Shown in pieces: positions 19,682-64,000 of a stretch of DNA of 64,000 nt. The DNA is from Xanthomonas cassavae CFBP 4642 (GTDB lineage: Bacteria; Pseudomonadota; Gammaproteobacteria; Xanthomonadales; Xanthomonadaceae). The stretch spans positions 2,650,992 through 2,714,991 of the forward strand of contig NZ_CM002139.1 of the NCBI RefSeq assembly GCF_000454545.1. The letters run 5' to 3'. A program made the position numbers and the translations under genes. The stretch's first letter is position 1; every line of letters begins with the position of its first letter. The notes under the pieces were generated by a model. That model did no database searches and was not told the DNA's origin. It saw nothing but the letters and a program-made list of their open reading frames with translations.

Positions 19682-19757
19682 GGGGCCATAGCTCAGCTGG
19701 GAGAGCGCCTGCATGGCATGCAGGAGGTCGGCGGTTCGATCCCGCCTGGCTCCACCA
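19682..19757 (+). tRNA. tRNA-Ala (anticodon GGC)
   Basis: A 76-nt cloverleaf with a 7-bp acceptor stem GGGGCCA/TGGCTCC, anticodon loop ATGGCAT giving GGC, the T-loop TTCGATC and an encoded CCA end. It is first of a two-tRNA unit with tRNA-Glu and is repeated almost exactly at 20419. Confidence 0.97.
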
Positions 19758-19804
19758 TCTCAGACATTAGGCCGTCTGAAATGACAACTCGGGTTTTGAT
19801 CTGC

Positions 19805-19880
19805 GTCCCCATCGTCTAGAGGCCTAGGACACCACCCTTTCACGGTGGACACCGGGGTTCGAATCCCCGTGGGGACGCCA
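19805..19880 (+). tRNA. tRNA-Glu (anticodon TTC)
   Basis: A 76-nt cloverleaf with acceptor stem GTCCCCA/TGGGGAC, anticodon stem CCACC/GGTGG around loop CTTTCAC (anticodon TTC), T-loop TTCGAAT and an encoded CCA end. It is 47 bases after tRNA-Ala and followed at once by a terminator. An identical copy is at 20542. Confidence 0.97.
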
Positions 19881-19887
19881 ATCATCC

Positions 19888-19914
19888 AAAGCCCCGGCAC
19901 CGCTGGGGCTTTTT
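19888..19914 (+). terminator. Rho-independent terminator after the first tRNA pair
   Basis: AAAGCCCC and GGGGCTTTTT arms flank a short GC loop, followed by a T run at 19910-19914. It ends the tRNA-Ala/tRNA-Glu transcript. Confidence 0.85.
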
Positions 19915-19920
19915 CATGCG

Positions 19921-20370
19921 TCGAAAAAGTTTCTCCCGCCCGCAAAGAAGCGCGCGCATCAATGCGTGAAGACAACCCGGCTGGCTCGCCTCATCAAGGC
20001 GCAAGATCAACGGTCGCCAGGCAGCACGTCACCGACATCACTACCAAGCGCCCGGCGTCCGCAGCGCACCGCGCTTGCAACGACGCCATCGATCGAAGCA
20101 GCTTTGCATCGGATCTCCCCCCCCCCTGTGCTGCGAGCGAGATGGCACGCAACACCATCGCGATAGCACAGACGCAGATTGCACCGACCTGCAGCAAGGC
20201 CGACGGCGCAGCGATGACAGCCCGCCACCGATGCACAGCTGCGATGGCCTCGCATGTGACTACCGTGACGATGCGATCGGCGCGCCGAGGCAAGGCGAGC
20301 GAAAAACGCACACTCATGAGCACCGGTTGCACCGCAGCCGCGTCCACAGCAAATTTTTTTCGAAGACCAC
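19921..20370. other. Spacer between the two tRNA pairs, no gene recognised
   Basis: About 450 bases without a convincing gene. It includes a run of ten cytosines at 20117-20126. A leftward open frame (19994 to about 20317) would give a ~107-residue protein with one hydrophobic segment and would contain the C run. I cannot tell whether it is real. Confidence 0.4.
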
Positions 20371-20399
20371 TTCCCAAAGACGATTTAGGTCGCTATGAT
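20371..20399 (+). promoter_or_regulatory. Promoter of the second tRNA pair
   Basis: TTCCCA at 20371-20376 and TATGAT at 20394-20399 are 17 bases apart, and the tRNA starts 20 bases after the -10. The -35 differs from that of the first copy, so the duplicated unit does not include an identical promoter. Confidence 0.55.
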
Positions 20400-20418
20400 T
20401 GCCGGCTCGCAGCAACGC

Positions 20419-20494
20419 GGGGCCATAGCTCAGCTGGGAGAGCGCCTGCATGGCATGCAGGAGGTCGGCGGTTCGATCCCGCCTGGCTCCACCA
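20419..20494 (+). tRNA. tRNA-Ala (anticodon GGC), second copy
   Basis: Identical in sequence to the copy at 19682, with encoded CCA. The spacer to the next tRNA is nearly the same length as in the first pair and shares a long central block. Confidence 0.97.
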
Positions 20495-20541
20495 CTTCAG
20501 ACATTAGGCCGTCTGGATTGGACAACGAGGTTTTGATACGC

Positions 20542-20617
20542 GTCCCCATCGTCTAGAGGCCTAGGACACCACCCTTTCACGGTGGACACCGGGGTTCGAA
20601 TCCCCGTGGGGACGCCA
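20542..20617 (+). tRNA. tRNA-Glu (anticodon TTC), second copy
   Basis: Identical to the copy at 19805, with encoded CCA. It again follows tRNA-Ala in the same unit and is followed by a terminator. Confidence 0.97.
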
Positions 20618-47160: not shown

Positions 47161-48705
47161 ATGACCCTCCCAGCAGCCATCCAAGCCGATCTGTTTCGCC
47201 ACGTCAGTGCGGAAAAGGCGGCGCTGTACCGTTGCATCATGGGGTGCTTCGCTGCTGCCAAGCGGCAGTTCCGGCTGCATCTTCGCCCCGATGAGGTTTT
47301 GGAGGATGCAGACTGGTCAAAACTGCCCAGCCAAGCCATGCCTCGGATGGAAGAAGTCCAGACGGCGCTGGCGCAACTGGCGGACTGGGGCAACCTCGAA
47401 TCCCAGCCAGACACCGCCCGCGTCGCCAGCATCAACGACTTCTACCGCGCGCGTTTCGTCTATCGACTCTCGCTGGGCGGCGAGGCAGTGGAGGCCGCGC
47501 TGGCAACCTTCAGCCGCACGCTACGCCGACGTGCCGAGCTGCAGAGCGTCGCGCTCGAGGACATCGCGCTGCGTTTGAAGGCATTGCTGACCCTGGCCGA
47601 TGCTGCCGAACCAGATGCCGTCAAGGTGCACGAGACCCTGCGCGACCTAGTGCGCGTGTTCGAGAGCCTGGCCGACAACGCGCAGGCCTTCATGGCAGGC
47701 GTCGGCCGTGGAATCGAACTGCAACACGCCGATGCCGCAGCGATACTCGCCTACAAGAAGCGGCTGATCGACTACCTGGAACGCTTCATCGGCGATCTGG
47801 TCGCCCGCTCCGGCGGCATTGCCCAGCACATCCTCATGCTGCAGTCGTGCATCGACACGCTGCTATGGCTGGCCGCTCAGCGCCAGGCCCGCGACAGCGC
47901 GCCGGGCGACGAAACGGAACAACGCGATGCGGTCACGCGCGGCTGGCACGCCTGGCGCGAACGCTGGACGGGGCTGCGCCGCTGGTTCCTGGCCACTGGC
48001 CACGCACCCGCGCAGTCCGAGTTGCTGCGCGCCAAGGCACGTGCGGCCATCCCGCAGTTGCTGTCGGCCGTGGCCACGATCAACGAGCGCCGCAGCGGAC
48101 GCAGTGACCGCTCTGCGGATTTTCGAATGCTTGCCGGTTGGTTCGCCGCCTGCGAGGACGATGACCAGGCCCACCGACTGGCACGCGCAGCGTTCGCGCT
48201 CAACCCGGCCCGACACTTCGCGCTGACCCCTGAGCTGGCGTCCGGCGCGCAGGACCTGCCCGCCAGCACGCCCTGGGCCGAGGCGCCGCCGCTGCGCGTC
48301 CACCCGCGCCTGCGCCAATACGGCCAGGCATCGCCACGCGGCGCATTGCCACGCGTGCAGACGCGCGAGGCCGAGCGGCAATTGCTGGCCGCCCGGCTGC
48401 ACGAGGAACATGCGCAAATCGAAGCCGCTCGCCAGCGCCTGGCCAATGGTCGCAGTACGTGCCTGTCCGAGGTCGACACACTCGATCCCCAGGCCTTTAC
48501 GCTCTTCCTCGGACTGCTGAGCGAAGCGCTGACCGCGCAATCTTCGCCCGACGCCGAGGTGGACGTGCCCAGCGGCGATGGCCTGCTGCGCATCCGCCTG
48601 CAGCCGCTGGCTGCGGGCAGCCGAGCCACCATCCACACCGCCACCGGTGCATTCAGCGGCCGCGACCACCTGATCACCATCACTCGCACGGACGCAGCAC
48701 CATGA
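47161..48705 (+). CDS. jetA: Wadjet system protein JetA, DUF2397 (TIGR02677) type
   Basis: 514 residues, mostly helical. The N terminus LFRHVSAEKAALYRCIMGCF and the LADWGNLESQPDTARVASINDFYRAR-type region (key residues LADWGNL and FYRARFVYRLS) match the DUF2397 family, the kleisin-like subunit of this Wadjet type. It would bridge the JetC ATPase heads in an SMC-like complex that extrudes and cuts closed circular plasmid DNA. It is first of four genes, and its stop overlaps the jetB start (ATGA). Only a weak Shine-Dalgarno precedes the ATG. Family assignment from recall of the signature, not a search. Confidence 0.85.
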   Translation: MTLPAAIQADLFRHVSAEKAALYRCIMGCFAAAKRQFRLHLRPDEVLEDADWSKLPSQAMPRMEEVQTALAQLADWGNLESQPDTARVASINDFYRARFVYRLSLGGEAVEAALATFSRTLRRRAELQSVALEDIALRLKALLTLADAAEPDAVKVHETLRDLVRVFESLADNAQAFMAGVGRGIELQHADAAAILAYKKRLIDYLERFIGDLVARSGGIAQHILMLQSCIDTLLWLAAQRQARDSAPGDETEQRDAVTRGWHAWRERWTGLRRWFLATGHAPAQSELLRAKARAAIPQLLSAVATINERRSGRSDRSADFRMLAGWFAACEDDDQAHRLARAAFALNPARHFALTPELASGAQDLPASTPWAEAPPLRVHPRLRQYGQASPRGALPRVQTREAERQLLAARLHEEHAQIEAARQRLANGRSTCLSEVDTLDPQAFTLFLGLLSEALTAQSSPDAEVDVPSGDGLLRIRLQPLAAGSRATIHTATGAFSGRDHLITITRTDAAP

Positions 48706-49964
48706 GCTCCGGCGACAACCGCGCCAACAGCCACAGCATCGGTCGCGAGCAGACCCGCCGCCGCGACGACGAACGCAGCCAGGCGCTGCGCGCGCTGCTC
48801 ATGGCACCGTTGATGACCCCCACACACCAGGACTTTGCCGCCGTGCGCCGGCATGCCGACGAACTACGCGCCTGGTTCGCACGCGAAACCGGCTGGACGC
48901 TGCACATCGAACGCGACTGCGCACGCCTGTACAAGCGGCCGGCCGACCTGGGCGACGCCAGCCGCGGCCTGCCCGGCTACGAACGCAGGCGCTATGTGCT
49001 GCTCTGCCTGGCCTGCGCGGTGCTCGAACGCGCCGACCCGCAGATCACCCTGCGCGTGCTGGGCGAGCGGCTGCTGGCGCTGGCCGCCGACCCCGCACTG
49101 GAATCGCGCGGATTTCGTTTTACCCTTGGCGCCGCGCATGAGCGCCGCGAACTGGTCGCCGTCTGCCGCAGCCTGCTGGAGCTTGGCGTGCTGCAGCGTG
49201 TTGCCGGCGACGAAGAAGGCTACGTGCGCAACAGCGGCGATGCAGCCGAGGGCGCAGATGCCCTGTACGACGTGCGCCGCCGAGTACTGGCCGGCGTACT
49301 TGCCGCAGTCCGCGGGCCATCCACCTGGCCCGCCGAGCAGGCTCCCGTGGACCTGGACGCACGCCTGGCATCACTGGTCAGCGAGCACCAGCCCGACAGC
49401 GAAGAAGGCCGTCGCACGGCCCTGCGCCACCACCTCGCGCGCCGCCTGCTGGACGACCCGGTGGTCTATCTGGACACCCTGGACCCCGAATTGCGCGCCT
49501 ACTTCGTCAATCAGCGCGGCGCGATGGCCAGCCGCCTGTGCGAGGCTGCCGGCCTGGTCGCCGAGCAGCGTGCTGAAGGGCTGGCCCTGGCAGACCAGGA
49601 CGGCGAGCTGACCGATATTGCCATGCCCGCCGAAGGCACCGAAGCCCATGCCACCCTGCTGGTCGCCGAGTTCCTCTCGCGGCCGCGCGCGTTCACCGAA
49701 ACAATCCACCACGACGATGTCGTCGCCTTTCTCGCCATCGCCCGTGAAGCGCACGGCAGCTACTGGCGCAAATCGGCGCGTGAGCCCGGTGCCGAACGCG
49801 AGCTCGCCAGCCTGGCGTTGGAGCGCCTGCAGAAACTGCAGCTGGTCGCATGCACCCAGACCCACGTCCGCCCCCTGCCCGCGCTGGCCCGCTTCGCACT
49901 CGGCGCAGCCGACATCCGCCAGTCGATCCCATCCACAGCCAGGCATCCCTCCCTGTTCGAATGA
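48702..49964 (+). CDS. jetB: Wadjet system protein JetB, DUF2398 (TIGR02678) type
   Basis: 420 residues from the ATG at 48702. The family look is clear: RRRDDERSQALRALLMAPLM near the N terminus, HIERDCARLYKRP, GYERRRYVLLCLACAVLERA, and later YLDTLDPELRAYFVNQRG. It matches the DUF2398 subunit, the KITE-like winged-helix partner of the Wadjet SMC complex. It overlaps jetA by 4 bases upstream and jetC by 4 bases downstream, so the three subunits are probably made in fixed proportion. Confidence 0.85.
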   Translation: MSSGDNRANSHSIGREQTRRRDDERSQALRALLMAPLMTPTHQDFAAVRRHADELRAWFARETGWTLHIERDCARLYKRPADLGDASRGLPGYERRRYVLLCLACAVLERADPQITLRVLGERLLALAADPALESRGFRFTLGAAHERRELVAVCRSLLELGVLQRVAGDEEGYVRNSGDAAEGADALYDVRRRVLAGVLAAVRGPSTWPAEQAPVDLDARLASLVSEHQPDSEEGRRTALRHHLARRLLDDPVVYLDTLDPELRAYFVNQRGAMASRLCEAAGLVAEQRAEGLALADQDGELTDIAMPAEGTEAHATLLVAEFLSRPRAFTETIHHDDVVAFLAIAREAHGSYWRKSAREPGAERELASLALERLQKLQLVACTQTHVRPLPALARFALGAADIRQSIPSTARHPSLFE

Positions 49965-52900
49965 CCGACGCACTCTGCCCACCCCTGCCCACTCCGACCC
50001 GCGCCCGCTGGCAGCCGCTGCGCCTGGGCTTGGTCGAATTGTTCCACTACGACAGCGAGGAGTTCTGGTTCCGCGACGGCCACCTGCTACTGCGCGGCAA
50101 TAACGGCACGGGCAAATCCAAGGTGCTTTCGCTGACCCTGCCCTTCCTGTTCGACGCCCAGCTCAAATCCTCGCGCATCGAACCCGATGGCGACGCCAGC
50201 AAGAAAATGGCCTGGAACCTGCTGCTGGGGCGCCACGACCGCCGCATGGGCTACGCCTGGCTGGAGCTGGGCCGGGTCGGTGCCGACGGCCAGCTCCATT
50301 ACCTCACCCTGGGCTGCGGGCTGCTTGCCGTGGCAGCACGCGCCCAGGTGGACAACTGGTTCTTCGTGCTTGAGCAACAGCGCATCGGTCGGGACCTGTG
50401 GTTGATGAGCCCCTCACGTGTGGTCCTCACGCGCGAACGACTGCGCGAGGCGCTGCAGGAGCATGGGCAGGTGTTCGACACCGCGACCGCCTACCGGCGT
50501 GCGGTCGACGAGCGCTTGTTCCACCTCGGGCTACAGCGCTATGCCGCGCTGATGGACACGCTGATCCAGCTCCGCCAGCCGCAGCTCTCCAAGAAACCGG
50601 ATGAAGCCAACCTCTCCAATGCCCTCACCGAGGCGCTGCCACCGATCTCCGTCGAGCTGTTGACCGACGTCGCCGACGCCTTGAACCAGCTCGAGGAATA
50701 CCGCCGCGAGCTGGAGGAATACGAAGCATTGGAGCGTGCCGTCGGCCAGTTCAATCAGCGTTATCAGCGCTACGCCGCCACCCAGGCCCGGCGCCGTGCG
50801 CGCAGCCTGCGCAGCGCGCAGACCGGCTTCGACAACGCCAGCCGCGACCTCAGCGACGGCCGTCTCACCCTGGAGACCGCGCACACCGCCGAAACCGGCG
50901 CCAGGCAAGCGCAACAACGCGCAGAAGAAGCCTTGGCGAGCCATCGCGTCCGGCACGACGAGTTGCAGAACGATCCGGCCATGACCGATGCCAAGGCCCT
51001 GGACAAGGCGGCAGCCGACGCCGAACGCCAGCGCAGCGAAGCGCACGCCGCCTGCACTGAACGCCGACACCGCCAAACCCGTCTCGAGCAGGAACAGCAG
51101 GCCACACGGCAGCGCGCCCAACGCGCCGACGACGCGAGCCGCACACTGACCGACGCACGCACTCAGGCCCGCGAGGCAGCCCAGGCAGCCGGGCTAGCGT
51201 CCGACTACGGCACCAGCCTGCTGGCCGAAGGCCAGGCGGCCGCCCTGACCCCAGCAGCGGTGACCTCTGCGCAACAGGATCTGCGCAACACCGCTGCCGC
51301 CCGCCGCGAACAGCTCGCCCATCTGCAGCGCCGGTGCGACGAAGCCGAGCAGGCTGCTCGCGCCCGTGCGCACGCGCAGGACCTGCGCGACGAGCGCGCC
51401 GCCGAGGCCGAGGACGCTGCCACCCGCCGCCAAGAGGCCGACACCGCCGTCGAACACCAAGGCCGGCAGTTGTTCGATGCCTGGCACTCCCACCTGGATG
51501 CTGCGCGTCAGCTGCGGGTGCCTGACAGCGGTGACGTCCTCGACGCGTTGGCCGCATGGACTGCAAGTCTGCATGGCGACAATCCCGCGCGCACTGCCCT
51601 GCACCGGGCTCAGCAGGCCGCCAGCCTGCTGCTGGCCCAGCGCCAGGCCGCGTTGCAGACCGAAAGGCACGCCTTGGGCCAGGAACAAGCCGCATTGCAA
51701 ACGGAGCGAATACGCCTGCAATCCGGTGAAGATGCCCTGCCCGTGCCGCCGGCATGGCGCGCGCCAGACGCACGCGACGGCCGGGCCGGGGCACCGCTGT
51801 GGCAACTGGTCGAGTTCGCCCCGACCGTGCCGGCCGACCAGCAGGCCGGTCTCGAAGCCGCGCTACAGGCCTCAGGCATGCTCGACGCCTGGGTCACGCC
51901 CGACGGACAGTTGCAGGACTGCGGCGGCGCGCCACTGCCGCACGATGCCCAATGGCTCGGCCGGCCGGCGCGCCTGGATTCGTTGGCCGCGTGGCTGCGG
52001 CCGGCAGCCTCGATCGACGCCACGCTGCCGGTCGCGCCTGTCGTCGTGCAACGCTTGCTCGAAGGTGTCGCCAGCGGCGAGCAGGACGACCCAAATGCCG
52101 AAGCCTGGATCGGTCCCGGCGGCCGTTTCCGGCTAGGCGCACTGGCGGGCGCCTGGCATAAGCCTCGCGCCGAATTCGTCGGCTACGCGGCGCGTGCAGC
52201 CGCCCGGGTCCGCCGCTTGAGCGAGATCGCTCAGCGACTGCTGGAACTCGACCAAGCGCAGTCGTTGTTGCAGGCCAGCGTCGCGCAACTCGCGGCCGAC
52301 CAGCACCAGGCCACCAGCGAGTGGCAGTCGGCCCCTGCCGACGACGCACTGCGCGCGACGCACCTGCAAGCCAGCATGTGCGTCCGCGAGTTCGACGCGG
52401 CCAGGCTGCGCCTGGACCAGACCGAACATGCCTTGCGCCGCGCCATCCAGCACTGGGAGACGGCCAACCAGACCCTGGAGCAGGACGCCCGCGATCTCGC
52501 CCTGCCGCCGGAGCGCGAGGCCTTGCACGTCATCGGCCACATGCTGCTCGCCTTCGGCGATCGGCTGCATGCGCTGACGAGTGCCGCGCGCGCCTGCCAT
52601 GACACGCTGGCCGAACAGCAGCAGCAGATCGAACGCGAACGGCAGGCCCAGACCGATGCAGAACACGCAGCCGAGCGGGCGGTCGAACGCGAACTGCTTG
52701 CCGAAGAGGCCCGCATCCGCCTGCAGACCTTGCGCGAATCGGTCGGTGCCAGGGTCGAGGAGATACAGCAGCGTATCGCCCACGCCCGGCAAGCCGTCGC
52801 CCATGCGGATTCGGAACTCAGAACGAGCAACGAAGCGCTTCGCCTGGCAGGCGAAGCCCGCGCCCGGGCCGAGCAGAAGGTCGAGACGGCCAACACCATC

Positions 52901-54088
52901 CTGGGCGAACGCATCGCAGCGCGCCAGCAGGCCATCGAGCAATGGCAGGGGTTCGCCGCCACCGGCCTGCTTGAGATCGCACTTCCGGCTGCCGAACTAC
53001 CGCCGCAGACCTCGGCATGGACCATCGAGCCGGCCCTGGCCCTGGCTCGGCGCGCCGAGCAGGCACTGCTGCAGATCAACGACGATGACGATGCCTGGAA
53101 TCGCGTGCAGAACCAGGTGTCGCAGGACTACACCGAACTTGGCCGGGCGCTGGCCGCGCTGAGCCACCGTGCCCAGGCCGAAACCAGCGATTTCGGCCTG
53201 ATCGTCAGCATCGTTTATCAAAACCGGCCCGAACGTCCCGACCAACTGGGCACGCGCCTGGCCGGCGAAATCGCCCAACGCCGGGAACTGCTGACCGCCG
53301 GCGAGCGTCAGGTACTGGAAAACCACCTGCAAGCCGAGATCGCCAGTGCTATCCATAAGCTGCTGCACGAGGCCGAGCAGCAGCTGGTGGCGATCAACCA
53401 GGAGCTGAGCAAGCGCCCGACCTCTACCGGCGTGCGTTTCCGCCTGGTGTGGGAAACCCTGCCGGAGAGCGGCGATGGCGGCGCCCCGGTCGGCCTCAAG
53501 GCGGCCCGTCAGCGCCTGCTCAACACCAGCACCGATCTGTGGAGCGTCGAGGACCGTCGCGTCGTCGGCGAAATGCTGCAACAGCGCATTGCCGCCGAAC
53601 GCAGCCGTGCCGATGCCGACCAGGGCGGCAGCCTGCACGAACAACTGGCGCGCGCGCTCGACTATCGCCGCTGGCACCGCTTCCGCGTGCAGCGCTGGGA
53701 TGGGCAATGGCGTCCGCTGTCCGGTCCAGCCTCCAGCGGCGAGCGCGCCCTTGGCCTGACGGTCCCCCTGTTCGCCGCCGTCTCCAGTTACTACTCACAG
53801 GCCGGCCACGCGCATGCGCCGCGATTGGTCCTGCTTGACGAAGTCTTCGCCGGCATCGATGACGCTGCGCGCCATCACTGCTGGGCGCTGATCCGCGAGT
53901 TCGACCTCGACTTCGTCGTCACCAGCGAACGCGAATGGGCCTGCTCGGCCGAATTGCCGGGGGTGGCGATCGCCCAGTTGCAGCGCCATGAAGGCATCGA
54001 CGCCGTGCATGTCTCGCGCTGGATGTGGGATGGTCGCGCCAAGCGCCAGGAGCCCGACCCCGACCGCCGCTTCCCGCCAGCTGCCTGA
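49961..54088 (+). CDS. jetC: Wadjet system SMC-like ATPase JetC (TIGR02680 type)
   Basis: 1375 residues from the ATG at 49961. Walker A GNNGTGKS is at residues 46-53. Two long Ala/Gln/Arg/Glu-rich coiled-coil arms (roughly 290-480 and 750-1000) flank a hinge-like middle region (about 600-740). The C-terminal head has an ABC signature SSGERALGL near residue 1259, Walker B LVLLDEVFAGID with the catalytic Glu1294, and FVVTSEREW. It is the DNA-translocating motor of the Wadjet complex. All ATPase motifs are intact, so the locus looks functional. Confidence 0.9.
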   Translation: MTDALCPPLPTPTRARWQPLRLGLVELFHYDSEEFWFRDGHLLLRGNNGTGKSKVLSLTLPFLFDAQLKSSRIEPDGDASKKMAWNLLLGRHDRRMGYAWLELGRVGADGQLHYLTLGCGLLAVAARAQVDNWFFVLEQQRIGRDLWLMSPSRVVLTRERLREALQEHGQVFDTATAYRRAVDERLFHLGLQRYAALMDTLIQLRQPQLSKKPDEANLSNALTEALPPISVELLTDVADALNQLEEYRRELEEYEALERAVGQFNQRYQRYAATQARRRARSLRSAQTGFDNASRDLSDGRLTLETAHTAETGARQAQQRAEEALASHRVRHDELQNDPAMTDAKALDKAAADAERQRSEAHAACTERRHRQTRLEQEQQATRQRAQRADDASRTLTDARTQAREAAQAAGLASDYGTSLLAEGQAAALTPAAVTSAQQDLRNTAAARREQLAHLQRRCDEAEQAARARAHAQDLRDERAAEAEDAATRRQEADTAVEHQGRQLFDAWHSHLDAARQLRVPDSGDVLDALAAWTASLHGDNPARTALHRAQQAASLLLAQRQAALQTERHALGQEQAALQTERIRLQSGEDALPVPPAWRAPDARDGRAGAPLWQLVEFAPTVPADQQAGLEAALQASGMLDAWVTPDGQLQDCGGAPLPHDAQWLGRPARLDSLAAWLRPAASIDATLPVAPVVVQRLLEGVASGEQDDPNAEAWIGPGGRFRLGALAGAWHKPRAEFVGYAARAAARVRRLSEIAQRLLELDQAQSLLQASVAQLAADQHQATSEWQSAPADDALRATHLQASMCVREFDAARLRLDQTEHALRRAIQHWETANQTLEQDARDLALPPEREALHVIGHMLLAFGDRLHALTSAARACHDTLAEQQQQIERERQAQTDAEHAAERAVERELLAEEARIRLQTLRESVGARVEEIQQRIAHARQAVAHADSELRTSNEALRLAGEARARAEQKVETANTILGERIAARQQAIEQWQGFAATGLLEIALPAAELPPQTSAWTIEPALALARRAEQALLQINDDDDAWNRVQNQVSQDYTELGRALAALSHRAQAETSDFGLIVSIVYQNRPERPDQLGTRLAGEIAQRRELLTAGERQVLENHLQAEIASAIHKLLHEAEQQLVAINQELSKRPTSTGVRFRLVWETLPESGDGGAPVGLKAARQRLLNTSTDLWSVEDRRVVGEMLQQRIAAERSRADADQGGSLHEQLARALDYRRWHRFRVQRWDGQWRPLSGPASSGERALGLTVPLFAAVSSYYSQAGHAHAPRLVLLDEVFAGIDDAARHHCWALIREFDLDFVVTSEREWACSAELPGVAIAQLQRHEGIDAVHVSRWMWDGRAKRQEPDPDRRFPPAA

Positions 54089-54113
54089 GCTGCGCTGCTT
54101 GAGTTTGAATCGC

Positions 54114-55415
54114 ATGTCCGCCGACACCGCACCGCCAACCGATCCGCTTGACCCGCGCCTGCAACGCCTGCTGGGCGGCGACGCCCTCGCCCCCCTGCGC
54201 CAGCGGCTGCGCCGGCATTTCGAACGCATCGGCGTCGATGCCACCGCATCGACGCTGCGCTTGAACGACCTCGATCCCGCCGCACATCACGCACTGTGCC
54301 GAATGACTGGCAGACCCACACGGCCGGCGCGCTCGATGACCCTGGACATCGGCCAGTTGGATTCTGCACTGCGCGCAGCCGGCGTCGCCAACTCCCTGCG
54401 CACGGCACTGGAACGTCTGGACGGCCCCATCGTCGACAAGACGCAGCTGCGCCTGGAACTTCAGGCCCGCTGGGCTGGCGTGATCGACTCGGCGGCTGCG
54501 TGCCCACTGCTGCAACATTGGTTGAACACGCCCTCGGCCCTAGCCGTGGTCAAGCGCCTGAGTCGTGAACCGCAACGGGTCGGGCCATTGTTGAACGCCG
54601 CCGACGCTGTGCTGCGCACGCTGCCAGCGCAGGGGCAGCCGCGCTCGCAACTGGCGGCCAGCCTGCTCGGCGATGCGCATGCCCTCGACGCCGGGCGAGC
54701 GGTGGCCACCCTCGTGCTGGCCGCATGGCGGCATCACGAACAGCAGCGCGCAACCAACCATGAGGCCGGCGAAGATCCCGACGATGGCCCACACAGGGCC
54801 GGCACGGACGAGCGTCAACGCGACATCTGGGCGCGCGCAGGCGTTCTGGTGAACGAGTTGGCCCGGCCTGCGCTCTTTCTCAATCTGCCAGTTGCCACCT
54901 GCGGTTCGCGGCCGGTGTCTGCGGGCGAGCCGTCGTATCTCTCGCTGCGGCAGTTGCTTCGAACCCGTCAGGCCTGGTCGGTGGCCGATCGCGTCGTGCA
55001 TGTCTGCGAGAACCCCAACGTTCTTGCCATCGCAGCCGACCGCTTGGGCCCGCGATGCGCACCGCTGGTCTGCACGGACGGCATGCCATCGGCCGCGCAA
55101 CGCATCCTGCTCGATCAACTGCAAGCTGCCGGCGCAACGCTGCGCTATCACGGAGACTTCGATTGGCCTGGTATCGTCATCGCCAATTTCGTGATCCGCA
55201 CCTGGAAGGCGACGCCGTGGCGAATGAGTACCCAAGACTATGCAGCAGCCGCCGATTCCGCCGCACACGTGCGGCATGGACTTGGCGCCACACCTGTCAA
55301 TGCCGACTGGGATCGGCATCTTGCATCTGCCATGCAGAACCGTGGCATTGCCATCGCAGAGGAAGCGGTGGCAATCACGTTGCTTGAGGATCTGTGTGTT
55401 CCGGATTCGGCATAA
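54114..55415 (+). CDS. jetD: Wadjet system nuclease JetD, DUF2399 (TIGR02679) type, Toprim-like
   Basis: 433 residues from the ATG at 54114, 25 bases after jetC. The C-terminal DUF2399 domain is a Toprim-type nuclease: the catalytic glutamate is in VCENPNV (Glu299) and the metal-binding Asp-x-Asp is in HGDFDWPGI (Asp348, Asp350), with PWRM and DY motifs after it. Between lies a helical arm region. JetD makes the double-strand break once JetABC has reeled in a closed circle. No inactivating change is visible. Confidence 0.88.
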   Translation: MSADTAPPTDPLDPRLQRLLGGDALAPLRQRLRRHFERIGVDATASTLRLNDLDPAAHHALCRMTGRPTRPARSMTLDIGQLDSALRAAGVANSLRTALERLDGPIVDKTQLRLELQARWAGVIDSAAACPLLQHWLNTPSALAVVKRLSREPQRVGPLLNAADAVLRTLPAQGQPRSQLAASLLGDAHALDAGRAVATLVLAAWRHHEQQRATNHEAGEDPDDGPHRAGTDERQRDIWARAGVLVNELARPALFLNLPVATCGSRPVSAGEPSYLSLRQLLRTRQAWSVADRVVHVCENPNVLAIAADRLGPRCAPLVCTDGMPSAAQRILLDQLQAAGATLRYHGDFDWPGIVIANFVIRTWKATPWRMSTQDYAAAADSAAHVRHGLGATPVNADWDRHLASAMQNRGIAIAEEAVAITLLEDLCVPDSA

Positions 55416-56067: not shown

Positions 56068-56280
56068 CTACGGCTTGCGCCGTCGGCGTTCAAGCTCCTG
56101 GTCGGCGAACTCGCCCGGCTGCAATGCTAGCTCGGCATCGGTCATGCGCTCCAGCACGTCGTGTAGGCGAATGGTGCAGAGCATGGGCGGCAGCTCAAAC
56201 TCGTAGCCGCCGGTGATCATTTCGGCCGCGATTTCCTCGGTGATGAAAAACGGCTCGGCGTCCTGATACGGCTTCGTCAT
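56068..56280 (-). CDS. Small acidic protein co-transcribed with the recombinase
   Basis: 70 residues, leftward, beginning MTKPYQDAEPFFITEEIAAE and ending in a basic ELERRRRKP. Its ATG at 56278-56280 overlaps the recombinase stop. Codon use and the helical/acidic pattern suggest a real protein. I do not recognise the family. Small genes of this kind often follow plasmid or transposon resolvases. Confidence 0.6.
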   Translation of the reverse strand: MTKPYQDAEPFFITEEIAAEMITGGYEFELPPMLCTIRLHDVLERMTDAELALQPGEFADQELERRRRKP

Positions 56281-57032
56281 ACCCTGTCCTCCTGGCGTTC
56301 ATCCTGGCCGACAGCGGCCAGGGCGTCGGCTTCCGTCAATGCATCCTCCACAAACGCGCCGCGCTGCTTCGCTTCGGCCTGGCTGACTTCGGCCCATATC
56401 CGTTTCACCTGGGCCGGGCTGCACCCGGCCAGCTCGGCGGTCTTGCTGATGCTGTGGCCGGACTTGCGCAGCGCGACAACCTGGGCGCGGCGCTTCGGGT
56501 CAGCGCGGCGGCCCTTGTAGCGCCCGGCCTCGCGGGCCAGCTTGATGCCTTGGCGCTGCCGCTCGCGCCTGTCCTCGTAGTCGTCGCGGGCCATCTGTAG
56601 AGCCAACTTCAAAAGCATATCCTGGACGGATTCCAGGACGATCTTGGCGACGCCGTGGGCCTTGGCTGCCAGGTAGGATAGATTGACTACGCCAGGGACA
56701 GCCAGGCGCGCACCATTGGCTCGGATCGACGCCACCAGGCGCTCGGCCTCTGGCAACGGTAAGCGGCTAATGCGGTCGATCGTCTCGGCAATGACCACCT
56801 CGCCCGGTTGCAGGTCGGCCACCATGCGCAACAACTCGGGCCGGTCGGCACGTGCGCCGCTGGCCTTCTCGCGGTAGACGTCGGCGACGTAGTACCCGGT
56901 GGCCTTCTGAGCCGTGATGATCCCTTCCTGGCGTTAAAGGTCTTGCGCTTCGGTGCTGACGCGCAGATAGACACGCGCCACAAGTGGCGCGGCCGCCGGT
57001 TTCGTCCTGCTCATGCTGGCTTGCATGTCCAT
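56277..57032 (-). pseudogene. Serine recombinase (resolvase family) gene interrupted by an in-frame TAA
   Basis: Leftward from ATGs at 57030-57032, 57024-57026 or 57012-57014 the frame reads ARVYLRVSTEAQDL, the resolvase N terminus with the catalytic serine. It then hits TAA at 56934-56936, and in the same frame continues RQEGIITAQKATGYY and YREKASGARADRPELLRMVA. It goes on to IDRISRLPLPEAERLV and a C-terminal helix-turn-helix (KSGHSISKTAELAGCSPAQV). No frameshift is needed: a single base change (for example GAA to TAA) explains it. An internal ATG at 56832-56834 could give a C-terminal fragment without the catalytic serine. A sequencing error is also possible. Confidence 0.75.
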
Positions 57033-57046
57033 ACAAAATTTTGTAT
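57031..57046. promoter_or_regulatory. Perfect 16-bp palindrome in the divergent promoter region of the recombinase and the PRTase operon
   Basis: ATACAAAATTTTGTAT is exactly self-complementary. It overlaps the first possible start codon of the recombinase and lies 62 bases before the PRTase ATG, so a dimeric regulator bound here could control both directions. It may be the target of the SLOG-HTH protein encoded downstream, or of the recombinase. Confidence 0.6.
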
Positions 57047-57108
57047 AGTTCATAAAGGCTTCTTGGCCCTGCTCGGGCGAAAGCCCATACGCCAAGGAAG
57101 CCCGCTCA

Positions 57109-57699
57109 ATGGAAGTCCAGGTTAGGAAAATCGAAGGTAGTTGGGATGCGGGCTATGCCCTGCACAAACACACTCTTTCAAGCGTCCACCTTGGGGTGGA
57201 CGAGTGGGGCCATGATCGCTTTGACACTACTCGGTCGGAACCCGGCGAAGCGCTCTATCAACTCAAGTACCGGAGTGACTGGAGCCAGGTCGATTCGTTG
57301 GCCGCGCAGGTCCGAGACACGCTGCTGCCCCTTTTCGGCAAAATCGGGCTGATTGTCCCCATGCCAGCCTCAACCGTGCGCACCAAGCAACCTGTAAACG
57401 AGCTGGCTAATGCGCTCGGCCGACTGACCGATATTCCGGTGTTTCACGAAATGATCGTCAAAGCTCCGGCCCAGGCCGGCAGTCCGGCGCTCAAAAACCT
57501 CCACACCAGGGCAGAGAAAGACGCAGCTCTGGCCGGCCGGATCACCGTCAACGAGTGCATCACGAACCAAGGCCGCTGGAACGCTTTGTTGCTCGATGAT
57601 CTGTTCGACACGGGAGCGACGATGAATGCCGTGTGCCAGGCCCTACGCACCTATCAAAAGATCAACCATATCTATGCCGCCACGATTACTTGGAAATAG
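57109..57699 (+). CDS. ComF-like phosphoribosyltransferase
   Basis: 196 residues. The type I PRTase fold is marked by the PRPP loop LLLDDLFDTGATMNAVCQAL near residue 160 (two acids, then DTGAT) and an upstream IGLIVPMPASTVRTKQPVNE segment, as in ComF proteins. KNLHTRAEKD in the middle is also ComF-like. The N-terminal ~60 residues form a beta-rich region without the zinc cysteines of classic ComF. AGGAAG lies just upstream of the ATG. It is followed after 3 bases by the SLOG-HTH gene, so they form one operon. The base or substrate is unknown. Confidence 0.82.
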   Translation: MEVQVRKIEGSWDAGYALHKHTLSSVHLGVDEWGHDRFDTTRSEPGEALYQLKYRSDWSQVDSLAAQVRDTLLPLFGKIGLIVPMPASTVRTKQPVNELANALGRLTDIPVFHEMIVKAPAQAGSPALKNLHTRAEKDAALAGRITVNECITNQGRWNALLLDDLFDTGATMNAVCQALRTYQKINHIYAATITWK

Positions 57700-57702
57700 A
57701 TC

Positions 57703-58563
57703 ATGAAAACCGTGTTCATTGCTGGATCGATATCCATCAGTCGCCTGCATGAGAAGGTGCGAGAGCGGATCAACAATATTGTCTCGCAGGATCTCAACGT
57801 TGTTGTGGGTGATGCCGATGGCGCGGATACCTCCATTCAGGAGTGTTTGCAGGCCTATCACGCCAGCAAGGTCACGGTCTATTGCACGGGCGAAGCGCCG
57901 CGCAACAACGTCGCGGATTGGCCCGTGCATCACGTCCAGTCTCAGGCCAGAGCTGGTACGCGGGCCTTCTTCACAGCGAAAGACGTAGAGATGGCCAAGA
58001 ACAGCGATTTTGGTCTGATGGTCTGGGATTGCAAAAGCACTGGCACACTCAGCAACGTTATCGAGCTGCTGAAGGCAAAGAAAAAATCTGTCGTGTTCGT
58101 CAACAAGAACAAGGATTTCGTGACCATCGGCGACAAGTCCGGCCTCGATCATCTATTGCATTTCATGTCGGAGCACGCACGCGCCAAGGCCGAGGAAAAG
58201 ATTGGCCTGTCGACGAAGATTACAGCACTGAGCCAGGAGAGCTTTACGCTCGATGCACCGGCAACAGAAGCGCCCAAGGACCTACTCGACGCGGCGGCCG
58301 ATCCTACCGTGACAGAGACTGTCGCCAGCACGGCCGAAACCGAGAGCGTGAAGCTGCGTGCCGTGCTGATGTCGGCGCTCGCGGACCATATCGCGCGGAC
58401 CCATTTAAGCCAATCGCAAGCGGCCAAGGTATTCGGAGTAACACAACCGCGCGTGTCCGACCTGCTGCGTGGTAAGACCAATTTGTTCGGCCTGGATACC
58501 CTCATCAATATGGCTGCCGCTGCTGGTCTGCGCGTGGAAATGCGGGTGCTGGAATCGGCGTGA
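57703..58563 (+). CDS. SLOG-domain protein fused to an XRE-type helix-turn-helix
   Basis: 286 residues in two parts. Residues 1-150 form a Rossmann-like SLOG domain: KTVFIAGSISISRL, the loop VVGDADGADTSIQE near residue 35, then DFGLMVWDCKSTGTLSNVIE and KSVVFVNKNK. SLOG domains bind or process nucleotide-derived ligands in several conflict systems. After a polar Ala/Glu/Thr linker (about 165-210), residues 215-286 form a HigA/HTH_37-type DNA-binding domain (LSQSQAAKVFGVTQPRVSDL, then RGKTNLFGLDTL). A sensor joined directly to a repressor is the simplest reading. The palindrome upstream is a possible operator. Confidence 0.75.
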   Translation: MKTVFIAGSISISRLHEKVRERINNIVSQDLNVVVGDADGADTSIQECLQAYHASKVTVYCTGEAPRNNVADWPVHHVQSQARAGTRAFFTAKDVEMAKNSDFGLMVWDCKSTGTLSNVIELLKAKKKSVVFVNKNKDFVTIGDKSGLDHLLHFMSEHARAKAEEKIGLSTKITALSQESFTLDAPATEAPKDLLDAAADPTVTETVASTAETESVKLRAVLMSALADHIARTHLSQSQAAKVFGVTQPRVSDLLRGKTNLFGLDTLINMAAAAGLRVEMRVLESA

Positions 58564-58599
58564 ATGTTCAGAAAACCACCGTTTGATGAACACCAAAGA

Positions 58600-58803
58600 A
58601 TGAGCATGAACAAGAACGACTCTGCGGAAGCTCCGCTGATTCCGAACGAAACGACGATCCAAGCGATGAAGGACGCTCGCGCTGGCCGCGTTTCTGGACA
58701 CTTTGCCACTGTCTCTGAACTTATGGCCGAACTGAACGCGGACGACGAGCACGACCGCCAGGCTGACGCAGCACGTTCCAAGGCAATACAAGGGATCAAG
58801 TAA
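58600..58803 (+). CDS. RelB/DinJ-like antitoxin without a visible toxin
   Basis: About 67 residues from the ATG at 58600; ATGs at 58564 and 58606 are alternatives and none has a strong Shine-Dalgarno. The central PLIPNETTIQAMKDARAG and FATVSELMAELNADDE pattern is typical of RelB-type antitoxins of RelE/YafQ pairs. After the stop no RelE-like frame is found in any phase, so the toxin partner is missing or destroyed. It follows the SLOG-HTH gene by about 36 bases and may be transcribed with it. Confidence 0.65.
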   Translation: MSMNKNDSAEAPLIPNETTIQAMKDARAGRVSGHFATVSELMAELNADDEHDRQADAARSKAIQGIK

Positions 58804-59720: not shown

Positions 59721-62357
59721 ATGTCAATATTGCAGGAGATACTGAACTGGACCAAAGGGTTGCCCGAATGGCAGAGCGATGCCGTGGCACGTTTGCTTGC
59801 CAAGCAGACACTCGCGATGGAAGACCAGAATGATCTGCTCGCGCTACTCAAGGCGGCATATGGCATTCCGGATCCCAAAGACCGTAAGTCCAAGCCACTA
59901 ACCGCCGAACAGATTCCCGCCCCGGTTCAAGTGACGACCCACGTTGAGCTACGGGCCATCAAGAACATGCGGCACGTCAACGCGATTGCCGAGAACCAAC
60001 ATCTACCCATCAGCGCCTCGGGCATGACCGTCATCTACGGTGATAACGGGTCAGGAAAATCGGGCTACTCCCGCGTTCTCAAACGCGCATGCCGTGCGCG
60101 CGATCAGTCGGAGGCCATTCATCCGAACGCCAACTTGCCTGCGAGCAAGGTAGGAACTCCGGAAGCCACTTTCGAGATCGCTGTCGACGGGGTTGCGCAG
60201 GACGCACACTGGCAACACGGCAAGGCGGCCCCTGCAGCGCTGTCGTCGTTTGCGATTTTCGACTCGCGTTGCGCTCGTGCCTACCTCGATAGTGAAGACG
60301 ATTTTTCGTATGTACCCTACGGACTCGATGTATTCGAAGGCTTGGCTAAAGTCTGCAAGCAGTTGAAGACGGCGATCGAGACCGAGTACGCTCAATCTGC
60401 CGCTGATCTTTCCGCCTTTGCTCCCCTGCAGGGAGACACGCTCGTCGGCAAACTGATCGCGTCGCTTTCCGCCAAGACAACTCAGGTCCAGATTGATGCG
60501 CTCGCGACTTTGATTCCGGAGGAACTTGCCCAGCATGCGTCCCTGGACAAGAGCCTGAAGGAGAACAACCCGAAGGAGAAAGCTGCGCAATTGCGATTGC
60601 GCGCCCGCCGTGTCGCAGCCATTGCGACGAATGCGGCCAGCAAAAGCGCCCAAGTGGATCAAGCTGTCGTCGCCAAACTGAAGGCTCTGGCAGACAGCTA
60701 TCGCACGGCGCAAGCTGCAGCCGCCCTCGCGGCGAAGCACTTCAAGGAAGGCGAAAACATGCTGCCAGGCACCGGCGGCGAGACATGGCGTGAACTTTTT
60801 GAGGCGGCGCGCAAGTTTGCCATCGAATCCCACCCTGATAAAACGTTTCCCGAATTGGGGGCAGACGCGCCCTGCCCTCTCTGTCAGCAAGCGCTCGCCG
60901 AAGGTGCTGACCGCTTACTGCGCTTCGAAGCCTTCATTCAACAGGAGGCGGAAAAAACCTCCCAGGCGCGTCGCGCGGCCCTGTCCGCCGAATACAAGCC
61001 ATTCGCTGCACAGGTTCTCACGCTGAATCTAGACGACGTGACGCATGGAGAAATCGAGGCCCTGGACCCGCAGTTGGCAGCCGATACCAAGGCATTCGAG
61101 CCGCTCCTGACCGCTCGCCAGGAAGCCATCAAAGCGGCAGTGGTCTCGCACCAGTGGGATGGCATCAACCAACCCTTGTTCAATCCAGCCGAACGGCTGC
61201 AGGCTTTGGCGAGCAAGCTGAATGCCGAAGTGGAGACCTTGGAGAAAGCCTCAGACGAAAAGGCCCGTGCAGCCCTACAGGAACAGTTCCTGGAACTGGA
61301 CGCGCGGGTACGACTGAGTCAAGTCAAGGATGCTGTCACCACAGCAGTCAATCGACTCGCCCACCAAGCCAAGCTCACGAAATGCCTGTCTGCCGTTAGG
61401 ACCAACGCCATTTCCTTGAAGGCATCGGAGTTGGCGGAAAAGGTCGTGTCGAAGAAACTGGCCGAATCGCTGAACCGCGAATTCAAGGCGCTCGGTGTCG
61501 GCACGCTGCGCGTTTCGCTGCAAAGCCGGTCGGATCGGGGCAAGGCCCTGCACAAGCTCAAGCTGGAACTGCAGCAAAGCCGCAGTCCAGGGGACATCTT
61601 GAGCGAAGGTGAGCAACGTGCAATCGCGGTCGGTTCTTTCCTTGCCGAGGTTGGCTTAAGCGGAGGCAAAGGCGGCATCGTATTTGATGATCCCGTATCG
61701 TCACTCGATCATCGTCGGCGCGAACGTGTGGCAAAGCGCTTGGCCGCCGAGGCAGCACAGCGGCAGGTCGTCGTATTTACCCACGACGTCTATTTCCTGT
61801 GCCTGCTCGTCGAAGAAGCGAAGTTGGCCGGTGTTCCCATCGCTACCCAAAGCCTGACCCGCCGCGCAGAAGGTTTCGGGGTTGCGGACCCGGATCTTCC
61901 ATTTGAGGGGAAAACGGCAAGTAAGCGAATCAATGCTCTGAAAGCGCAACACCAAGGCATTGAAAAGCTTTACAAGGATGGCGAAGAGCAAGAGCACAAG
62001 CGGCAAACCATTGATGCCTACTTTCGCTTGCGCATGGCGTGGGAGCGCGCCGTAGAGGAGGTGTTGTTACACCAAGTCATCCTTCGTTTCCGAAAAGGCG
62101 TCGAGACTCAGCGACTGGCTGGCGTAATAGTCGAAGATGACGACTACGCGCGCGTAACCGCAGGCATGACAAAGTGCTCCAACTATGCGCACGACAAAGC
62201 GCTCATGGGCGGCGTGGCCGTCCCCGAACCCAATGAACTGCTCGTCGACATCATGGCGCTGGAAACTTGGCGCGGACAAGTTGAGGCGCGTAATGTGAGT
62301 ACGGCGAAGAAACGCAAGGCCGGACCGGCCGTCGCGCCACCTACCGCAGCACCATAG
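59721..62357 (+). CDS. RloC-like AAA ATPase with zinc hook and anticodon-nuclease-like C terminus
   Basis: 878 residues. The Walker A GDNGSGKS is at residues 107-114, followed by the AAA_13-type segment FAIFDSRCARAYLDSED. Two coiled-coil stretches (about 210-340 and 395-600) flank a zinc-hook CPLC (Cys385, Cys388). The ABC signature LSEGEQRAIAVGSF, Walker B GGIVFDDPVSSLD and FTHD follow. The C-terminal helical region has Arg771 and Glu775 in RMAWE and His824 in SNYAHD. This recalls the Arg-Glu-His triad of PrrC/RloC anticodon nucleases, although the Glu-His spacing is longer than in PrrC. If correct it would cleave tRNA on phage or DNA-damage signals. No restriction-modification genes are adjacent. 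Confidence 0.75.
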   Translation: MSILQEILNWTKGLPEWQSDAVARLLAKQTLAMEDQNDLLALLKAAYGIPDPKDRKSKPLTAEQIPAPVQVTTHVELRAIKNMRHVNAIAENQHLPISASGMTVIYGDNGSGKSGYSRVLKRACRARDQSEAIHPNANLPASKVGTPEATFEIAVDGVAQDAHWQHGKAAPAALSSFAIFDSRCARAYLDSEDDFSYVPYGLDVFEGLAKVCKQLKTAIETEYAQSAADLSAFAPLQGDTLVGKLIASLSAKTTQVQIDALATLIPEELAQHASLDKSLKENNPKEKAAQLRLRARRVAAIATNAASKSAQVDQAVVAKLKALADSYRTAQAAAALAAKHFKEGENMLPGTGGETWRELFEAARKFAIESHPDKTFPELGADAPCPLCQQALAEGADRLLRFEAFIQQEAEKTSQARRAALSAEYKPFAAQVLTLNLDDVTHGEIEALDPQLAADTKAFEPLLTARQEAIKAAVVSHQWDGINQPLFNPAERLQALASKLNAEVETLEKASDEKARAALQEQFLELDARVRLSQVKDAVTTAVNRLAHQAKLTKCLSAVRTNAISLKASELAEKVVSKKLAESLNREFKALGVGTLRVSLQSRSDRGKALHKLKLELQQSRSPGDILSEGEQRAIAVGSFLAEVGLSGGKGGIVFDDPVSSLDHRRRERVAKRLAAEAAQRQVVVFTHDVYFLCLLVEEAKLAGVPIATQSLTRRAEGFGVADPDLPFEGKTASKRINALKAQHQGIEKLYKDGEEQEHKRQTIDAYFRLRMAWERAVEEVLLHQVILRFRKGVETQRLAGVIVEDDDYARVTAGMTKCSNYAHDKALMGGVAVPEPNELLVDIMALETWRGQVEARNVSTAKKRKAGPAVAPPTAAP

Positions 62358-62422: not shown

Positions 62423-63891
62423 TCACACTTCGCCCTCATCGATATCGTCGAAGATGCTTCGCGTGCCGTGCTTTTCCTCAGAGGGCTCAATGGCTCCAAG
62501 AGTCCGAGGACTTCTCTTCGGTTCGGGCGTCTTGGTTTCGGCGATCCATTCATTTGCGAGATCCATCTCGCGCTCAATGAGCTTGACTGCATCTGCATCT
62601 CCGCTGAATCGCATCTTGAGGGTGTTGAACGATTCGAGAATATCTTGCATATGCTCATCCGGAGGGTCGGAGGAATGGTTGCTTTGCACCTCTAGCCGCA
62701 GTTCTGGCAACTTCGGCAGTAGGTCCGCGCGCGTGGTTTCCACAAGATCATCAAATTCTTCTTCTGTGAAGACACTGCGCACACCGGCATCTTTCAAGGC
62801 GTATGTGTCCTCACCCGCAATCGCATAGTTGCTAACGTTCTCGACGAACTGTCTTCGGTTCTCCTCGGGAAGGAGCCCGAACTCATGCAGGCGTACCGCG
62901 AGATCAACCTCAGGTACAGCGCTAAGGCTCAACCCTGGCTTGGACACACGCTCCAAGGTTTCCGCTGACTGCTCAAGGAACAACGCCAAGAACTCTTTGG
63001 AACAACGACTGGCGAGAAACCGGTGGAGTGTCCATCTCGCCCCCCACGAAGACATCCACTCCACTTTGTACATATCGCTGGCTGAGAACTCCAGCAGGCG
63101 CGCAATCATCATCGGGAAGAGCGACTTCGGAACAACAACCGCCTTTTCAAAGCCGACGTTGCCGCATGTGACCTGGGATGTCAGATTCTCCGTGGAGCTT
63201 CCACTCAAGAAAATGCCGAGCAAATCAGGACTGAAAGCCAGGGTCGCAGCATACGCATCGCCGATGGTCGGGTGCTTGAAACGCCACACCGGTTGGTCGT
63301 CAACCTGGACATTGGTCACAAGACTGCCGCTGAGCGCATCGAGTGCGGTGATGCAAGCTCCCAGTGTGCTGCCAAGCCGCTCCAGTGCTTGCGTTTCGGT
63401 GCCCTGTAAGGTGACAGGGCTTTCGAGGTGATCTTTCCTCATGTAGATCAAGCCGAGCGCGGCCTTGCTGTTTGCATCCAACCCCTGGATCACTTCAAGC
63501 AGAAGCTGCTCGCGCTTTTCCACGAATTTTCCAAGATGGTATTCACCGACATAGAGGTCCTTGGTGAACAGCGGATCCGCGATGCGCCGTGCCGTCTCTG
63601 GAATGAAGCGCGGATGTACTGCCATGCCTTCCAAGTGCGGTTTGATATCAGCCCGAAACGCGGTGGGCTGCTTTCCGAGTTTCAGATGGTTGTACAAAAT
63701 CTGTTGTCTTTCTAAGGTCGATAGGTCATGAACATCGATCACTACCTGGCTTTCGCCGAGCAGCGGGAACGCACTTTCCTTGAGGTCATGACGCGCACGG
63801 TTGTATATGTAATTCCGTGAGGTCATGACGATCTTGACCCCGTGACGCAACATCGCCCTCACCTGTGCCAGTGAATGGTTCCAGCCCTGCA
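62423..63891 (-). pseudogene. STAND-type NTPase (nSTAND3-like), 5' part missing at the window edge
   Basis: About 490 residues remain. The first family-like sequence is WNHSLAQVRAMLRHGVKIVM followed by TSRNYIY, the sensor-1-type region of nSTAND3 ATPases. Then comes VVIDVHDLSTLERQQILYNH, a winged-helix part (FIPETARRIADPLF) and a long helical C-terminal arm. The Walker A and B motifs, and any N-terminal effector such as the nuclease domains often found in this class, would lie to the right and are absent. The residues before the Trp do not look like the family. I place the break at the putative IS end at 63892. The stop is at 62423-62425. Confidence 0.65.
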
Positions 63892-64000
63892 CTAGGGATG
63901 GTCTGATCAACGCAGCCGGAAAACGAAACACGCCACATCCGCCGCGCTGAGGGCGCTCAAACCCCCGGTTTTTTGCCGTTTTCGGCACGTTTTCGGGGTA
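63892..64000. mobile_element. Probable end of an insertion sequence running off the right edge
   Basis: CTAGGGATGGTCTGATCAAC at 63892-63911 looks like a terminal inverted repeat of an IS5-type element, and it marks the exact place where the STAND gene sequence stops making sense. The remaining bases to 64000 are GC-rich with a repeated GTTTTCGG motif and have no gene. The identification is by resemblance only. The other end lies outside the window. Confidence 0.45.

Follow-up and report, generated by a model that had tools for sequence, protein, structure and literature searches.

Pairs of a phosphoribosyltransferase (PRTase) and a DprA/SLOG protein have been published as ShosTA, PsyrTA and RqlHI and, in the available portions of these papers, are described as toxin-antitoxin or anti-phage systems (PMC9122126; PMC4670107; PMC12593503). 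According to the same portions, DprA together with a PRTase gives protection from T7 and lambda (PMC9122126); co-precipitation of RqlI with RqlH requires the PRTase domain, and mutation of the loop that binds phosphoribosyl pyrophosphate (PRPP) abolishes RqlH toxicity (PMC4670107). ShosT reportedly works both as a PRTase and as a pyrophosphatase, with disturbed purine metabolism and DNA damage as the outcome; ShosA is said to bind DNA, and the reported trigger of the system is T7 Gp0.7 (Pu et al. 2025, cited in the available text of PMC12593503). Here we analyzed a gene pair of this kind in Xanthomonas cassavae CFBP 4642, located at 57109-58563 of a stretch of 64,000 nucleotides (NZ_CM002139.1, forward-strand positions 2,650,992 to 2,714,991; hereafter the window). 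We consider it likely that the pair is a mobile, autorepressed toxin-antitoxin-type module of the PRTase plus DprA/SLOG kind, lying next to a Wadjet system within a defence island, and that it is probably of the abortive-infection type. It looks like a mobile poison-and-antidote unit with an on/off switch borrowed from another toxin-antitoxin family. Its parts are the following:

57109..57699, + strand: PRTase gene (ComF-like, 196 amino acids), an open reading frame (ORF); proposed toxin/effector
57586..57621, + strand: PRPP-binding loop LLLDDLFDTGAT, PRTase residues 160-171, with D163, D164 and G169 conserved in relatives
57703..58563, + strand: ORF for a SLOG (DprA-like) protein fused to HTH_37, 286 amino acids; proposed antitoxin and autorepressor
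57703..58197, + strand: SLOG domain, about residues 1-165, from structure prediction and conserved motifs
58327..58548, + strand: HTH_37 (HigA-type XRE) domain, residues 209-282 (PF13744, E 3.3e-20)
57031..57046, no strand: putative operator palindrome ATACAAAATTTTGTAT, 16 bp, from co-occurrence with HTH-fused loci
57021..57049, + strand: promoter-like TTGCAT-17-TATAGT, 8 of 12 consensus letters, overlapping the operator

An earlier note on this DNA had described a PRTase with an intact PRPP loop, followed after 3 bases by a SLOG protein with an XRE-type helix-turn-helix (HTH) domain and accompanied by a palindrome. ORFs, structure prediction and Pfam show this layout to be exact: in the ORF list of the window both genes lie on the same strand, separated by 3 bases, and the loop LLLDDLFDTGAT is intact. 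To follow the pair across genomes, the contigs of 84,980 genomes were scanned with a profile from a 12-row PRTase alignment, which gave 342 relatives; the 80 best of these were retained, and a scan of viral contigs with the PRTase added 22 loci, for a total of 102. A SLOG gene lies directly downstream of the PRTase on the same strand at all 102 loci, with a spacing of -4 to 10 bp at 100 of them. At L071 and L088, the remaining two, the PRTase frame is broken into two pieces, the second of which still adjoins the SLOG gene. The reverse search of viral contigs from SLOG found the PRTase adjacent at 23 of 25 loci; one of the misses starts at a contig edge (L179) and the other is a partial match with 40% identity (L202). 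The two viral scans are not independent samples, since their locus sets overlap. The PRTase-SLOG pairing is near-obligate; the rare co-occurrence that would have spoken against the earlier note was not seen.

The PRTase is a small single-domain protein of 196 residues without a RecQ-like helicase in the domain scan. Pfam assigns it a weak PF00156 domain (E 0.0029, under the cut-off), PADLOC matches it to the C-terminal PRTase part of PsyrT (E 2.3e-7) and to ShosT (E 3.9e-4), and in structure comparison its modelled fold matches the ShosT structures 8zvc/8zvd. D163, D164 and G169 are invariant at all 100 scan loci with an uninterrupted PRTase, and 599 relatives were found at E <= 1e-3. The NCBIfam comF score of 19.6 bits is below the cut-off of 233.55. 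In ComF an N-terminal cysteine (zinc) finger is expected, whereas the first 60 residues hold no cysteine in 93 of 111 sequences of the present family and a CxxC in one. The window PRTase differs from ComF in lacking the finger, in being mobile and in being paired with SLOG.

For the SLOG-HTH protein, the predicted structure shows a SLOG domain modelled with confidence, followed by a flexible linker and an HTH domain; the mean predicted local distance difference test score is 89.0. The fold of the SLOG model matches molybdenum cofactor (MoCo)-carrier, YpsA, DprA, LOG and ShosA (8zva) structures; the structure-match rows (VIA-align) cover mostly residues 1-196 of this model and 42-375 of a read-through model, so that families beyond those listed may match as well. 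Pfam names the HTH_37 part only and leaves the SLOG half unnamed, PADLOC gives a weak homing-endonuclease match alone (E 9.6e-4, over the HTH region), and 1578 relatives were found at E <= 1e-3, some possibly via the HTH alone. Putative ligand motifs of the SLOG domain (GDAxGxD, R67, N69, K93-D94 and S112-x-G-T-L-x-N118) are invariant in all 102 proteins. LOG enzymes carry a catalytic Glu in a PGGxGTxxE motif; residue 118, which from an alignment by eye we take to be the position of this Glu, is Asn in 102 of 102 proteins. For this reason ligand binding is likelier than hydrolysis, and a LOG-like enzyme is disfavoured; the protein also differs from LOG, YpsA and MoCo-carrier proteins in sitting in an operon with a PRTase. 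In profile comparison the HTH domain resembles HigA and HipB structures (E 0.0011 and 0.011), and it is 70-77% identical to its closest stand-alone kin, which, in the cases examined, are antitoxins directly behind RelE/ParE-family toxin genes. Directly after the SLOG-HTH stop lies an ORF of 79 amino acids (58564-58803, +) with a weak phrog_2737 match (E 0.0035) and no match in the Pfam scan, which gives the impression, and only that, of an orphan RelB-type antitoxin tail.

HTH_37 is carried by 19 of the 102 scan loci. The other 83 have SLOG alone or with short tails, except L026, where SLOG is fused to a different C-terminal extension of about 270 residues with a weak DUF5677 match (L026:10593-11891). 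Two plasmid loci, from Agrobacterium (L003) and Xanthomonas (L010), carry another antitoxin domain on SLOG, the 'addiction module antidote' PF21716/TIGR02684. With three further loci (L001, L006 and L007) and the window, the HTH-fused set comprises 23 loci. In a tree of PRTase plus SLOG, midpoint-rooted for drawing only, the 23 HTH rows fall within one supported 25-row set that includes the non-HTH loci L026 and L028 and stands amid SLOG-only rows. The simplest reading of this tree is that the HTH_37 fusion was gained once and then lost in some lineages.

The palindrome at 57031-57046 is perfect and has no second copy in the window even when up to 2 mismatches are allowed (expectation from shuffled sequence, 0.00), and the window site is the only exact match to ATACAARATTTTGTAT in the 5.27-Mb genome. 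Of the 23 HTH-fused loci, 21 have ATACAARATTTTGTAT, with up to 2 mismatches, at a distance of 54-84 bp upstream of the PRTase. It is found in 0 of 87 loci without a fused antitoxin domain, each with at least 100 bp of upstream sequence (best, 4 mismatches), and in neither of the two antidote-fused loci, which have a palindrome of their own. After deduplication to 15 loci, the palindrome itself shows 93% pairwise identity, against 31% in the 30-bp flanks on either side. The operator co-varies with the fused HTH_37 domain. The same 16 bp stand without mismatch 25 bp before RelE/ParE-family toxin genes in L113 (toxin PF05973, E 3.2e-29) and L114, and with 2 mismatches in L116; at L115, with a more distant HTH_37 gene (50% identical), the 16-bp palindrome is absent. 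An exact-pattern scan of 398 genomes returned 6 places, including the window's own, one further PRTase-SLOG pair (L168) and the HigB-type/HTH_37 modules L170 (toxin similarity on two overlapping frames) and L171, while the pattern read backwards occurs once in the same genomes. The 20-bp form CTATACAAAATTTTGTATAG had no match in viral contigs. In the window the palindrome is placed between and over the two hexamers of the promoter-like match, which is weak; the operator of V. cholerae HigA2 likewise begins downstream of the -35 element and overlaps the -10 element, as far as the available text of PMC11006873 describes it. The self-regulation through 57031-57046 that the earlier note had proposed gains computational support from the distribution of this putative operator among HTH-fused pairs and HigB-HTH_37 genes.

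By analogy with ShosTA and RqlHI, we infer that the window PRTase is the toxin and the SLOG protein the antitoxin. The ComF-like PRTase would use PRPP via its DD...G loop and, when free, may disturb nucleotide pools or DNA, as ShosT and RqlH suggest; SLOG would bind and restrain it in the manner of RqlI and ShosA. The HigA-type HTH_37 domain on SLOG would repress the operon by binding 57031-57046, so that the toxin would be released and the operon induced whenever the antitoxin is lost or titrated away. Toxicity, neutralisation, a trigger and phage defence are what this scheme predicts of the pair, as is binding of the SLOG-HTH protein to the predicted operator. The fusion of SLOG to antitoxin domains and the operator held in common with HigBA modules are evidence that does not depend on the ShosTA/RqlHI analogy. 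In a more elaborate form, which seems to us rather unlikely, the SLOG-HTH protein would be a ligand-gated bifunctional antitoxin, whose SLOG domain clamps the PRTase and also binds its nucleotide product or a phage-altered nucleotide, switching the HTH off the HigBA-type operator. Since HigBA modules have this operator too, a cell with both would have its two unrelated toxin systems cross-wired at the level of transcription.

With ShosTA the locus shares the adjacent pair of PRTase and DprA-like SLOG genes and the folds of both halves (8zvc/8zvd and 8zva), and its SLOG protein matches ShosA in sequence (BLASTP E 4e-4, 20% over 147 amino acids; hhalign probability 70.8, E 3.8e-5), although it lacks the N-terminal part of ShosA (the match begins at ShosA residue 130) and adds HTH_37. 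RqlHI and PsyrTA also have the toxin gene first, the PRTase matches the PRTase part of the PADLOC PsyrT model although the family profile favours ComF-like PRTases, and the downstream gene in L140 and L147 scores weakly as SLOG (E 0.0022 and 0.0084); however, those systems have a RecQ helicase-PRTase, whereas the window PRTase has no helicase and the window SLOG is fused to an HTH. HigBA of the Gp49-HTH_37 type shares the antitoxin domain, the same palindromic putative operator at the promoter, the toxin-first order and a resolvase nearby, as in Tn3-family modules (PMC7157771). It differs in that the partner here is a PRTase and not a HigB/Gp49 RNase of the RelE/ParE fold, and in that SLOG stands ahead of the HTH. 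The suggestion of a wholly undescribed system is not supported, since ShosTA, PsyrTA and RqlHI are known and the folds match. Neither the exact fused layout nor this PRTase-SLOG family, its SLOG-only and HTH-fused forms or the operator sharing was found in the searches made of open-licence literature, which is not proof of absence. A figure in the available part of a 2026 paper shows PRTase and HTH among validated E. coli defence systems, from which identity with the present family could not be told (PMC13092281).

The distribution of the pair is patchy and mobile. Among genomes of the host's family, 2 of 149 have it (30% identity in the second), and within the genus 1 of 6. It was also detected in 64 of the 5426 E. 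coli genomes, 54 of which match over at least 80% of the query, and in 61 of 72,556 plasmid records, 38 of these 61 conjugative; prophage-like contigs and chromosomes carry it as well. In E. coli W5-6 its neighbours are ABC-three-component genes together with plasmid transfer/replication genes that have integrated into the chromosome, and a recombinase-family gene is nearby in 5 of 9 hand-picked plasmid loci (L006-L010) in the stretch shown. Altericroceibacterium (L011:5437-16969) and Methylopila (L020:5433-16970) share 11.5 kb around the pair, including a MerR-helicase ORF and an LmuA-like gene; since this stretch is 96.3% identical between the two, it is a recently moved element. The nearest neighbours of the 102 loci were scanned as 154 ORFs (80 of 98 upstream, 74 of 96 downstream). 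The listings of the 25 commonest families include phage integrases (8), MerR-helicase (8) and Bro-N (6); the listed matches at E <= 1e-20 include reverse transcriptases, HamB, LmuA and PDC-S06 (2 each) and BrxHI, SduA and a CBASS 4TM effector (1 each). No constant third effector gene stands beside the pair among these neighbours.

Several observations weigh against a toxin-antitoxin module of this kind. The PRTase has no BLASTP match to ShosT and an hhalign probability of 5.6, and in L119 the ShosA gene comes first, whereas the PRTase gene is first in the window and at 102 of 102 loci. A profile of the PRTase family scores stand-alone ComF-like PRTases higher (up to 56 bits) than PsyrT (up to 35) and ShosT (8), and the PRTase domain of RqlH alone is non-toxic, according to the available text of PMC4670107. 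The PRTase had no match in a named phage collection, and the read-through model (predicted template modelling score 0.59) shows no usable interface. Two HTH-fused loci lack a good operator (L024, 3 mismatches; L027, 4), two of the six exact sites (L169:1501-1516 and L172:1501-1516) have neither a PRTase pair nor an HTH_37 module nearby, and a promoter scanner with a stricter rule reported no promoter in this region of the window. E. coli W5-6 carries, just upstream of its intact pair, a second intact PRTase with a decayed SLOG remnant (L001:10862-11876; by eye of the L003/L010-like subfamily), which is odd for a toxin unless it is unexpressed or cross-neutralised. Finally, a control set of 116 ORFs, taken from single-contig genomes at 20 arbitrarily chosen regions, matched 12 PADLOC families, including mad3 (2), two PDC candidates, RtcR, dGTPase, IetA and a reverse transcriptase; judged by these counts, defence genes are likely enriched around the pair. 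Because the PRTase lacks sequence homology to ShosT, the pair was not filed as a ShosTA member, and membership proper, which failed on PRTase sequence and gene order, is not claimed. A ShosT model run over 299 genomes matched 289 at its loose limit and is for that reason unspecific; L119 alone is a clear ShosTA.

A rival explanation close to the idea of the earlier note is nucleotide signalling, in which a PRTase product would be bound by SLOG and the HTH released from the operator, with gene control or a further effector and not direct toxicity as the output. The invariant putative ligand motifs, with Asn118 in place of the LOG catalytic Glu, agree with such a role. SLOG domains can be non-catalytic nucleotide sensors, as the available text of PMC9503650 states. 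However, 83 of 102 loci keep the pair without HTH_37, the neighbours hold no constant third effector, and the genome has one exact operator-like site and therefore no wider regulon, so that we regard this explanation as improbable; a toxin plus DNA-binding antitoxin fits better. Somewhat more doubtful still is a mobile pair with a competence-like role: since natural transformation involves both ComF and DprA, the two proteins may act during conjugation to protect or process plasmid DNA that enters as a single strand. Yet the PRTase lacks the ComF zinc-finger cysteines, antitoxin-type DNA-binding domains and an autoregulatory putative operator would be unexpected, and the pair also occurs in prophage-like contigs and chromosomes.

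We consider a housekeeping operon of the ordinary nucleotide-salvage or ComF type, with a repressor, very improbable. Source records do label the PRTase 'ComF family protein' or 'amidophosphoribosyltransferase', but the few carriers in the host's family and in E. coli, the plasmid and prophage-like locations and the near-identical stretch in Altericroceibacterium and Methylopila are at odds with it, and it was rejected on the patchy mobile distribution and the pairing. The mainly housekeeping context that the earlier note would have counted against itself was not seen; the pair is found on plasmids, in prophage-like contigs and in patchily distributed genomes.

If the toxin-antitoxin reading is true, the few PRTase/DprA-like toxin-antitoxin systems would gain a further family that is compact and widely mobile, and of which the PADLOC 2023 defence annotation picks up the PRTase alone, and weakly. 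The HTH-fused pairs show clearly that an antitoxin DNA-binding domain can recur along with the same operator, which here precedes a different toxin, and the shared operator predicts a testable cross-regulation between HigBA and PRTase-SLOG modules. Variants with SLOG alone, with HTH_37 or with the antidote domain separate neutralisation from autoregulation, so the antitoxin role of SLOG is directly testable.

The defence-island setting claimed for the window is borne out by its neighbours. PADLOC places a type II Wadjet at 47161-55415 (+) upstream of the pair, and the flanking features are as follows:

47161-48705, + strand: JetA (PADLOC E 7.9e-200)
49850-54088, + strand: JetC (PADLOC E 0)
53988-55415, + strand: JetD (PADLOC E 2.1e-139)
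about 56277-57014, - strand: serine resolvase frame, divergent from the pair, with an in-frame stop near its start (family scan); a neighbour outside the module
59721-62357, + strand: PDC-S06 candidate defence ATPase, downstream of the pair (PADLOC E 7.1e-221)
62423-64000, - strand: nSTAND3 protein, downstream of the pair and running off the window end (Pfam scan)

The ORF in the place of JetB (48835-49611) had no PADLOC match at 1e-5. Plasmid DNA similar to the resolvase side (86.8%) ends at 57020, the base before the promoter-like hexamer, in the 20 matches listed, and 1868 of the 72,556 plasmids match over no less than 80% of the query. A Tn3 unit was considered and looks doubtful: an interrupted resolvase lies beside the pair, but the window contains no Tn3 transposase, the nearest lies about 77 kb from the pair, and 3 of 12 genomes or records of relatives have one anywhere. 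Elsewhere in the window, a tRNA-Ala(ggc)-tRNA-Glu(ttc) pair occurs twice in tandem at 19682-20617 (+).
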